Source of the DNA: Serpentinimonas maccroryi
Lineage (GTDB): Bacteria > Pseudomonadota > Gammaproteobacteria > Burkholderiales > Burkholderiaceae_C
NCBI RefSeq assembly: GCF_000828915.1
Contig: NZ_AP014569.1
Coordinates: forward strand, 62,001 to 126,000
Reading direction: 5' to 3'
DNA: 64,000 nucleotides
This document shows, piece after piece, positions 4,600-32,851 of this stretch; position 1 is the first letter of the stretch, and each line of letters opens with the position of its first letter. The translations under genes were made by a program, and so were the position numbers. The notes under the pieces are model-generated. The model did not search any database. It was given only the letters and a program-made list of their open reading frames with translations, and was not told where the DNA came from.

Positions 4600-4782
4600 G
4601 TTTGGAACCTGAGAGATTCATGACCCGTGGCTTTGGGTCACTTGCTCCTGCGGTGGGTCGGGCGATGAGGCCGACCACTCTTCAGAGATTTGCATGGCAA
4701 GCGCCGGTCCTTTGGCCTGAGAGTTTCCGGGGCGGTTGCTCCTTCGGCGCCCACCTCAATGAAGGGTGGATCTCTCCCGACG
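4600..4782 (-). promoter_or_regulatory. Tandem glycine riboswitch (gcvT type)
   Basis: Read on the minus strand, the first aptamer (4779 down to 4716) has GGGAGAGATCC, then GCCGAAGGAGCAA, then AAACTCTCAGG. A linker follows, then a second aptamer (4690 down to 4604) with ATCTCTGAAGAG, CGCAGGAGCAAGTGACC and GAATCTCTCAGG. These are the conserved blocks of the two glycine-binding domains in the usual order. It ends about 70 bp before the ATG of the dadA-like gene at 4533, so it belongs to that transcript. The expression platform is not obvious; I see no T-tract hairpin before the start, so translational control is possible. Confidence 0.92.
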
Positions 4783-4843
4783 CTTGTGCAGGTAGTGATA
4801 CCGCAGATGTTACTGCAATACCGGGATTTGTGGCTTAACTGTA

Positions 4844-15087: not shown

Positions 15088-16215
15088 TTAAGTCTGCTTG
15101 CGTCGCGCCGCCACGGCGTCGGCCAGTCCTTGCAGCAGGCCGACGGTGTCGTCCCAGCCGATGCAGGCGTCGGTGATGCTCTGGCCGTAGCACAGGGTGC
15201 CGATGGCGTCTTGGCCAGGCGTGAATTTTTGTGCCCCGGCGCACAGGTGGCTTTCGACCATCACGCCCATGATCTGGCGCGATCCGGCGGCGATCTGCTG
15301 TCCGATGTCGGTGGCCACTTCGAGCTGGCGCTGGTGCTGCTTGCTGCTGTTGGCGTGGCTGCAGTCTATCATCAGGCGCGGCGTGAGTTTGGCGGCGGCC
15401 AATTCGGCGCAGGCGCTGGCCACGTTGGCGGCGTCGTAGTTGGGCGCTTTGCCGCCGCGCAAAATCAGGTGGCAGTCGGGGTTGCCCTTGGTCTGCACGA
15501 TCGCCACCTGGCCGTTTTTGTGCACCGACAAAAAGTGGTGCCCGCGCGCCGCCGCCAAAATGGCGTCGCTGGCGATGCGGATGTTGCCATCGGTGCCGTT
15601 TTTGAAGCCGATGGGCGCGCTCAGGCCCGAGGCCAGTTCGCGGTGCACCTGGCTTTCGGTGGTGCGCGCGCCGATCGCGCCCCAGCTGATCAGGTCGCCG
15701 ATGTACTGCGGGCTGATGACGTCGAGGAACTCGCTGCCGGCGGGCAGGCCGAGGCGGTTGATGTCGATCAGCAGCTGGCGCGCAATGCGCAAGCCCTCGT
15801 CGATGCGAAAGCTGCCGTCGAGGTAGGGGTCGTTGATCAGGCCCTTCCAGCCGACGGTGGTGCGCGGTTTTTCGAAATACACCCGCATCACGATCTCGAG
15901 CTGCTCGCGGTGCTGCTCGCGCAGCGGCTGCAGGCGCCGGGCGTAGTCGAGCGCGGCGGCGGGGTCGTGGATCGAGCACGGGCCGACCACCACCAGCAGC
16001 CGCTCGTCTTGCCCTTGCACGATGCGGTGGATGTTGCGCCGCGTCTGGCCGATGAGTTGCTCGACCGCGGTGCCACGGATCGGGAAAAAGCGGATCAGGT
16101 GTTCGGGAGGCGGCAGCACGGTGATGTCCTCGATGCGTTGGTCGTCGGTCAGGCTGGTGCGATCGATCGGGTGCGTGTGCCAGTAGTCGGCGGGGGCGGC
16201 GGCGGTAGTGCTCAT
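15088..16215 (-). CDS. aroG: 3-deoxy-7-phosphoheptulonate (DAHP) synthase, AroG type
   Basis: 375 residues, class I alpha DAHP synthase. Motifs: VVGPCSIHDPAAALDYA (PEP/metal-binding Cys), YFEKPRTTVGWKGLINDPYLDGSF (read in two parts), SPQYIGDLISWGAIGARTTESQ, GFKNGTDGN, and LMIDCSHANSSK. It condenses phosphoenolpyruvate with erythrose 4-phosphate, the first step of aromatic amino acid synthesis. The ATG at 16215 is preceded by AAGGAG. The leader carries an aromatic leader peptide and a terminator-type hairpin, so the gene is probably attenuation-controlled by aromatic aminoacyl-tRNA supply. Which amino acid inhibits the enzyme cannot be told. Confidence 0.96.
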   Translation of the reverse strand: MSTTAAAPADYWHTHPIDRTSLTDDQRIEDITVLPPPEHLIRFFPIRGTAVEQLIGQTRRNIHRIVQGQDERLLVVVGPCSIHDPAAALDYARRLQPLREQHREQLEIVMRVYFEKPRTTVGWKGLINDPYLDGSFRIDEGLRIARQLLIDINRLGLPAGSEFLDVISPQYIGDLISWGAIGARTTESQVHRELASGLSAPIGFKNGTDGNIRIASDAILAAARGHHFLSVHKNGQVAIVQTKGNPDCHLILRGGKAPNYDAANVASACAELAAAKLTPRLMIDCSHANSSKQHQRQLEVATDIGQQIAAGSRQIMGVMVESHLCAGAQKFTPGQDAIGTLCYGQSITDACIGWDDTVGLLQGLADAVAARRKQT

Positions 16216-16276
16216 GGTCAAACTCCTTGAAGGGGGTGGCTGCGAAAGGGGTGGGGTGTCGCTTAGGGGCGAGGGC

Positions 16277-16306
16277 AAAAAAAAACCGCCGGAGGGTTTC
16301 CGACGG
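16277..16306 (-). terminator. Attenuator hairpin in the aroG leader
   Basis: On the minus strand CCGTCGG, a short AAACCCT loop and CCGGCGG form a 7 bp stem with one G-U pair, followed by nine T. It lies 62 bp before the aroG ATG and 39 bp after the stop of an aromatic leader peptide, the layout of a classical attenuator. The other strand also has a run of six T after the stem, so it could stop transcription both ways. Confidence 0.8.
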
Positions 16307-16344
16307 TTTTTTGGGCGCCTGCGGCCGGTTTTATGGGGCCGCAC

Positions 16345-16413
16345 TCATCGCTCTCTGCCGTCGGTGACGCGTGAGAACCAAAAGCTGGCAAAATAAAAGC
16401 GGGCGGCTTGCAT
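16345..16413 (-). CDS. Aromatic leader peptide of aroG
   Basis: A 22-residue frame starting at ATG 16413 and ending TGA 16347-16345. Its middle reads RFYFASFWF: four Phe, one Tyr and one Trp in nine positions, far beyond chance. It lies upstream of a terminator-type hairpin and of aroG on the same strand, as pheL and similar leader peptides do. When charged aromatic tRNA is scarce, the ribosome would stall in this stretch and favour an antiterminator (inference). The gene is too short for usual gene finders. The divergent ABC exporter begins 125 bp away, so both promoters lie between. Confidence 0.8.
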   Translation of the reverse strand: MQAARFYFASFWFSRVTDGRER

Positions 16414-16537
16414 GGGCGACAATGTAGCACATTTGCAGTGCCCCAGCCTGCTGCCTTCGTATCCCCCGCGCGCTCCCCCGGTGCTGCCTGCGCGGACCCT
16501 TACACGGGCCGGCAAAGCGGGTAGAGTGCCCACCCTG

Positions 16538-31468: not shown

Positions 31469-32851
31469 TCAGCAGGGCTTCTCGGCGCCTTTGCGCCAGT
31501 AGTACCAGTAGTTGAGCGCGATGCCCACGAAGTACAGGAAGGCGAAGAAATAGAGCGCGGCATTGGGGCTGCCGGTCATGGCAAACGAGCGACCAAACAG
31601 GATCGGCACAAAAAAGCCCAGCAGCAACACCGCCATCGCCGCCGTAAAGCCCAGCACCGGGCTGGCTTGCTTGGGCTCGAAGATCATCACGATCTGCTTG
31701 AACACGCTGGCGTTGCCGATGCCAGCACCCAAGAAGATGCCCAGCAGCACGATGAAGAACAGGGTGAACTGCTCGGATGAAGTCGGTGCGGTGAGGAAGG
31801 TCAGGCCGATGGCCGAGCTGGCCATGATCGCGAACACCAGCATGGTCATGTTCGAGCCGCCAAACTTGTCGGAGAAGATGCCGCCGATGGGCCGAATCAG
31901 CGCCCCCACCAGCGGCCCGATCCAAGCGTAGGCGAGGGGGTCGGGGGCGTTGGGCAGGCCGTGGAACACTTCGCGGATCAGCAGCGGCGTCGAGGCGACA
32001 AAGCCCGAAAAGGTGCCGAAGGTGAAGGTGTAGAGGATGGTCTGCACCCAAGTGTGCTTGAGCTTGACGATCTGCATCTGCTCCATGAAGTCGCCGCGCG
32101 CCGGGTGGTTCTTCATGCCAAACAGCACCAGCACGGCCATGATCAGGGTCGGGATGAGCCAGATGTAGGCCGCGTTTTGTGGGTACATCAGAACCTCGCG
32201 CACCACCTCGCGCGTCGCTGGGTTGAGCACCCTGAACATCATCGAGTCGCCGGCAATGGCGCCAAACAGCCCCACGCCGATGGCGGCGGGCACCAAGAAC
32301 TGCGCCGTCGAGGCCCCCAGGTTGCCAAAGCCGATGGTGAAGCCCAGCGCCGAGCCGCCGATGCGCTTGGGAAACCACAGGCTGATGTTGGCCGCGGTAG
32401 AAGAGATCTGGCCACCGGCACACAGCCCCGCGACACCGGCCCAGAACAGCAGCACCCAGAACGGTGTGGTCGGGTCTTGCACCACGTGCCCGATGCCAAA
32501 GATCGGGATCAGCAGCGCCAGCGTGAAGATGAAGGTGGTCCACATGCCGCCGATCTTGAGCACCAAAAAGGTGTGCGGAAAGCGCGCCACCGCGCCCATG
32601 AGCAGCGCCATCGCCGGCAGCCAGAAGCGCTGATCGACGGTGAGCTGAAAGCCCAAGCCCGGCAGGCGCACCACCAGCGCGCTCCAGGTAAACCAGACCG
32701 CAAACGCCAAGTGCAGCGCCAAGAAGGCGATGATCAGGGTGCGGATCGCCAGCCACTTGCGGCTGTTCCAAAAAACCGGGTCCTCGGGGCGCCATTCGGT
32801 CACGTTGGGCGACCAGATCGGTTTCGACTGGGCGCTGGTTCGGTTGTTCAT
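31469..32851 (-). CDS. narK2: NarK-type nitrate/nitrite MFS transporter (NarK2-like)
   Basis: 460 residues with about 12 membrane segments. The N-terminal RPEDPVFWNSRKWLAIRTL and AFAVWFTWSALVV stretches resemble E. coli NarK, and the nitrate signature appears as GFGNLGAS. This type is usually a nitrate/nitrite antiporter (family knowledge). The ATG at 32851 follows a GGAG; the longer frame to 33025 lies in a hairpin-rich leader and is not used. It sits 37 bp before narG and ends the run of three narK genes. Confidence 0.93.
   Translation of the reverse strand: MNNRTSAQSKPIWSPNVTEWRPEDPVFWNSRKWLAIRTLIIAFLALHLAFAVWFTWSALVVRLPGLGFQLTVDQRFWLPAMALLMGAVARFPHTFLVLKIGGMWTTFIFTLALLIPIFGIGHVVQDPTTPFWVLLFWAGVAGLCAGGQISSTAANISLWFPKRIGGSALGFTIGFGNLGASTAQFLVPAAIGVGLFGAIAGDSMMFRVLNPATREVVREVLMYPQNAAYIWLIPTLIMAVLVLFGMKNHPARGDFMEQMQIVKLKHTWVQTILYTFTFGTFSGFVASTPLLIREVFHGLPNAPDPLAYAWIGPLVGALIRPIGGIFSDKFGGSNMTMLVFAIMASSAIGLTFLTAPTSSEQFTLFFIVLLGIFLGAGIGNASVFKQIVMIFEPKQASPVLGFTAAMAVLLLGFFVPILFGRSFAMTGSPNAALYFFAFLYFVGIALNYWYYWRKGAEKPC

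Follow-up and report, generated by a model that had tools for sequence, protein, structure and literature searches.

The first step of aromatic amino acid biosynthesis is understood mainly from E. coli, with its TyrR and TrpR repressors and three differently inhibited isoenzymes. Leaders that sense several related amino acids at one site are known from the ilv and thr operons, and these differ from the leader described here, which lies in front of the aroG-like DAHP synthase gene of Serpentinimonas maccroryi, in being concerned with branched-chain amino acids or with Thr and Ile instead of the aromatic ones. The E. coli pheL-pheA and trpL-trpEDCBA leaders follow the same 1:2/2:3/3:4 logic, with the regulatory codons placed over strand 1, but each of them senses one amino acid and controls terminal-branch genes, whereas the gene concerned here encodes the common first step.

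The closest known system is AroR-aroF of Corynebacterium glutamicum, in which mixed aromatic codons likewise precede a DAHP synthase gene under ribosome-mediated attenuation, and the AroR leader is reportedly leaderless. The likeness is functional, and AroR differs in coming from an unrelated phylum and in having no Trp codon. AroR contains Phe-Tyr-Phe and, according to secondary accounts of the work, responds to Phe, with Tyr reportedly without effect (Neshat et al. 2014, via PMC11802643 and PMC4046766). The uORFC-13-1 motif, found before aroF of Acholeplasma, consists of a Phe-codon uORF and a terminator, and attenuation was proposed for it; it differs from the present leader in belonging to another phylum, in having a ribosome-binding site, in containing only at least one Phe codon and in being represented by 24 sequences (PMC8632094). 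For the aroF leader of Shewanella a structured 5'-UTR before DAHP synthase was computed and Tyr-tRNA-sensing attenuation was cited, and it differs in that no mixed leader is described there (PMC2659441). DAHP synthase genes of Gammaproteobacteria have been described as being under TyrR/TrpR control (PMC5343134).

No earlier description of the Burkholderiales aroG leader was found in the open literature; it may have been predicted elsewhere. The leader combines the features that mark an attenuator, i.e. codons for products of the pathway in a short ORF, an intrinsic terminator between this ORF and the gene, and an antiterminator that excludes the terminator. It is a well-supported and probably undescribed variant of the classical mechanism.

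Leader ORF, terminator and gene in S. maccroryi

The window analysed, meaning the whole stretch of 64,000 nucleotides of S. maccroryi DNA, carries the leader on its minus strand, from ATG 16413 to TGA 16345 (Table 1). The ORF comprises 22 codons with RFYFASFWF inside, and reads ATG CAA GCC GCC CGC TTT TAT TTT GCC AGC TTT TGG TTC TCA CGC GTC ACC GAC GGC AGA GAG CGA TGA. It is followed by a terminator hairpin, AAAAAACCGUCGGA-AACCC-UCCGGCGGUUUUUU, of 14 pairs and -18.9 kcal/mol, and then by nine U (16285-16277). The 137-nt leader folded better than every one of 200 dinucleotide shuffles (z = -3.83). The U run is separated by about 60 nt from the ATG 16215 of the DAHP synthase gene, which has AAGGAG 7 nt upstream. 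The product scored 534.5 bits against TIGR00034 aroFGH (cut-off 173.2), and its best PDB matches were Phe-sensitive DAHP synthases. The original prediction had read this locus as a 22-codon aromatic frame with a hairpin and nine U in front of aroG, and both elements were borne out.

A longer DAHP synthase start at GTG 16344 was considered and rejected, since such a gene would cross the terminator and since a good Shine-Dalgarno sequence stands before ATG 16215. The longest frame of the gene, 15088-16344 (-), opens inside the attenuator, and gene finders may wrongly extend the gene through the terminator. An extra hairpin, UGCGGCC..GGCCGCA, lies between the leader stop and the terminator (16320-16345, minus strand) and shortens the 2:3 loop in S. 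maccroryi.

When the window was searched for ORFs of at most 45 aa with at least six aromatic residues in 9 codons, two loci were obtained, the aroG leader and one other. The latter, MTGSPNAALYFFAFLYFVGIALNYWYYWRKGAEKPC (approximately 31469-31579, minus strand), is unrelated and hydrophobic, and resembles a small membrane protein.

Table 1. Features of the aroG leader region in the window
Feature	Position	Strand	Basis
Probable extended -10 element TGC-TACATT	16421..16429	-	-10-like hexamer near ATG in 63/89 leaders
Leader peptide ORF MQAARFYFASFWFSRVTDGRER	16345..16413	-	ORF call, homologous leaders, synonymous-only wobble
Strand 1 GUUCUC, over last Trp/Phe/Ser codons; 5' side of 1:2 pause/protector hairpin	16373..16378	-	
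Strand 2 core CCGACGG; antiterminator partner of strand 3, inside 1:2 hairpin	16358..16364	-	
3' side of 1:2 hairpin, GAGAGC	16350..16355	-	
Strand 3 CCGUCGG; terminator 5' arm, alternative partner of strand 2	16300..16306	-	
Strand 4 CCGGCGG; terminator 3' arm	16286..16292	-	
Run of nine U, end of intrinsic terminator	16277..16285	-	
Regulated gene, type I 3-deoxy-7-phosphoheptulonate (DAHP) synthase, aroG-like, 375 aa	15088..16215	-	

Conservation of the aromatic tract

DAHP synthase genes were sought in 60 relatives and in named genomes, which gave 110 loci in all. An aromatic leader was present at the same place in all 30 of the closest loci and in 92 of the 110, and removal of 3 identical repeats left 89 distinct leaders. 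Loci without a leader include Polynucleobacter, second copies in Cupriavidus, Thauera, Rhodocyclus and one contig truncated upstream. The typical peptide is M..FYFYFWFSVPGGREA in Comamonadaceae, MSAKFYFYFFWYLRPLADREG in Burkholderia, Paraburkholderia and Caballeronia, and FFTGYFYFSNSNPKAVE, which has no Trp, in Massilia and its relatives. Phe and Tyr were present in 89 of 89 distinct leaders and Trp in 74, the remaining 15 having no Trp codon.

Within the tract of the 89 leaders Phe was encoded by TTT (254) or TTC (125), never by TTA or TTG; the Tyr codons were TAT (64) and TAC (90), and TGG was found 76 times. The variation of the Phe and Tyr codons was thus synonymous only, and differences in leader length preserved the frame. 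This pattern of codon change indicates that the aromatic tract is translated, and the aromatic stretch, for which conservation in related genomes had been named as a check, is kept as amino acids across the order.

Past the tract it is the nucleotides GGCGG...GAGAGG that are conserved, and they are read in varying frames, giving GGREA, ADER (L024, L136), AEER (L132) or PAEER (L056); sometimes the region contains a stop codon (L016, L017, L019). Since the pattern of conservation reverses past the tract, the first half of the leader is kept as peptide and the second half as RNA. This bears on the idea that a free aromatic amino acid is sensed by the nascent peptide itself, which would then halt its ribosome in the manner of TnaC. 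The peptide is indeed short and aromatic, but an arrest peptide sits poorly with a distal part that is conserved as RNA, in differing frames and sometimes with a stop inside, and with tract residues that exchange among F, Y and W, so that we hold such arrest to be highly improbable.

Three competing helices

Helix statistics were computed on an alignment of 64 leaders. The antiterminator, which the original prediction had left unfolded, exists: strands 2 and 3 form 89.9% standard pairs, against 16-56% when one strand is slid along the other, and double-sided changes occur in 4 of 7 pairs (0 of 500 shuffles, which ignore kinship). Compensatory versions of the 2:3 helix include AGCGG:CCGCU in one leader (L032) and CUGGCGG:CCGCCAG in Burkholderia. 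In the genus of S. maccroryi a C to U change in strand 3 is matched by a G to A change in strand 2, while strand 4 retains a G-U pair. The strand 3 of each leader fitted its own strand 2 better than swapped strands did (0 of 5000 permutations, relatedness not removed).

The alternative helices 1:2 and 3:4 were 92.7% paired, with 7 pairs showing double changes and a covariation score attained in 0 of 500 shuffles (kinship not removed), and the terminator cells were paired in 97.2% across the 64 leaders. The sequence comparison thus establishes three competing, mutually exclusive stems with compensatory changes.

Short ORFs are common, and one could by chance stand beside an ordinary terminator. 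To this we assign a negligible probability, because the search for aromatic ORFs given above yielded 0 loci in 20 random 64-kb sequences from a first-order Markov model, and conservation across the order together with covariation refute it.

Probable promoter and predicted start of the leader transcript

In 63 of the 89 leaders, mainly those of Comamonadaceae, the leader ATG is preceded at 6-9 nt by the end of a -10-like hexamer, usually in the extended form TGCTACATT. No -35 hexamer was recognisable upstream of the aroG leader, and no Shine-Dalgarno sequence was found before the leader ATG. Transcription is predicted to start at the leader ATG or within 1-3 nt of it. As the likely -10 box ends at such a short distance from the ATG, the transcript is probably leaderless, with translation of the peptide beginning at or next to its 5' end.

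Stall model and proposed mechanism

The effect of a waiting ribosome was assessed with a simple model, in which the RNA was folded up to the terminator loop and the ribosome footprint was held single-stranded. Mean formation of the 2:3 helix was 0.97-1.0 when the ribosome stood 1-4 codons short of the last aromatic codon; it was 0.8 when this codon itself was occupied, and 0.01 three codons further on. For the leader in the window the values were 1.00 at Phe11, Trp12 and Phe13, 0.89 at Tyr7 and 0.40 at Phe6, in comparison to 0.06 with no ribosome. The full-length RNA at equilibrium still favours the terminator with the ribosome on Trp12, and therefore antitermination must be kinetic, the 2:3 helix forming first. 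Antitermination by an earlier-forming 2:3 helix is usual for such systems.

We consider it very likely that a ribosome-mediated transcription attenuator precedes the DAHP synthase gene. In the proposed mechanism RNA polymerase would start near the leader ATG and a ribosome would translate the aromatic-rich peptide. As long as all three aromatic tRNAs (Phe, Tyr and Trp) are charged, the ribosome would pass the tract and cover strand 2, leaving strand 3 to pair with strand 4, and transcription would end at the U run. A shortage of any one of these charged tRNAs would keep the ribosome waiting in the tract, where it would mask strand 1; strand 2 would then capture strand 3 ahead of the synthesis of strand 4, no terminator would form and the DAHP synthase gene would be transcribed. 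If the leader is not translated at all, the 1:2 hairpin would form and termination is expected. That the leader responds to charged tRNA, and with what relative weight for each of the three amino acids, we infer.

Which amino acids may be sensed

Given the stall values on the Phe, Trp and Tyr codons, the gene should be released whenever one of these amino acids runs out. The proposal that one leader would sense Phe, Tyr and Trp together thus agrees with the conservation of the codons and with the stall model, which suggest that all three would be sensed in vivo as well. It had also been claimed that such a mixed leader departs from single-amino-acid leaders such as pheL and trpL; the mixed codons are present, but mixed leaders as such are not new, as ilv, thr and AroR demonstrate.

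The Tyr codon of S. maccroryi lies 6 codons upstream of the last Phe (FYFASFWF, as against FGYFWF) and is thus more distant from strand 1 than the Tyr codon of most relatives. With its codon placed farther upstream, Tyr may be the amino acid sensed most weakly in S. maccroryi.

The attenuator could instead sense mainly Phe, with the Tyr and Trp codons as passengers of little effect. Phe is the commonest residue (379 of 609 aromatic codons), Trp is absent from 15 of 89 leaders, and the functional relative that has been studied best, AroR of C. glutamicum, reportedly answers to Phe and not to Tyr. Against this, Tyr occurs in all 89 leaders and Trp in 74 of them, nearly always where a stall opens strand 2. 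We regard sensing of mainly Phe as possible but rather unlikely.

Specificity and distribution

A covariance model (R1) was built from the leader alignment and used to scan the order at E <=0.001 with strict filters. The S. maccroryi genome contained exactly one match, and no such leader precedes its trpE, its pheA or its second DAHP synthase gene. Across Burkholderiales 96 of 399 genomes were positive. All 30 loci that were checked lay directly before a DAHP synthase gene, and all 20 further loci showed an aromatic leader, which ties the element to this gene. One locus (G057:C1:2636369-2638684) has two tandem DAHP synthases behind a single aromatic leader.

In a class-wide sample 4 of 5 matches outside the order (L176-L179) adjoined DAHP synthase and had Phe/Tyr/Trp leaders, and so the element is either older than Burkholderiales or was transferred. 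The leader in these other orders of the class is of the type FYFWYYFPKPLAEEG. The fifth match (L180, E 9.6e-4) was discarded as a false positive, as it adjoins no DAHP synthase.

No Rfam family matched the aroG leader element. Phe_leader (RF01859) scored 15.9 bits, below its gathering threshold of 55, and among other Rfam riboswitches and leaders, including T-box, none matched the window at gathering score except the glycine riboswitch. The aptamer of the latter (RF00504) was found at 4695-4789 (minus strand) with 68.1 bits.

The terminated leader of about 137 nt would resemble an sRNA in RNA-seq, and it gives a weak full-length match to Rfam ncS01 (28.8 bits, cut-off 58), which would suit an independent trans-acting sRNA with an incidental link to aroG. 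However, true ncS01 (129 bits) adjoins genes for branched-chain amino acid transport and lacks an aromatic ORF, whereas each of the 30 checked copies of the aroG leader stands directly before DAHP synthase, and an independent sRNA is accordingly judged very improbable. The identity of the aroG leader with ncS01 (RF02865) itself was rejected, since in Burkholderia that RNA lies between the transporter genes and has no aromatic ORF.

In its widest form, the attenuator reading would have one leader, on a leaderless transcript, serve at the first step of the pathway as an OR-gate for the charging of the Phe, Tyr and Trp tRNAs in much of Burkholderiales and in some other Gammaproteobacteria, with the released RNA or peptide acting in addition in trans, as has been described for rnTrpL of Sinorhizobium. 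Taken as a whole, this is a speculative proposal with a small chance of being right.

Implications for Burkholderiales

At the practical level, the results allow a region that otherwise carries no annotation or a wrong one to be labelled specifically as leader peptide plus terminator, and they supply a covariance model for a family missing from Rfam. They suggest that in Burkholderiales such as Comamonas, Hydrogenophaga, Cupriavidus and Paraburkholderia a single leader directly monitors how well the aromatic tRNAs (three, or two in some families) are charged. The attenuator would also be a control point relevant to the production of aromatic compounds in Burkholderiales hosts.
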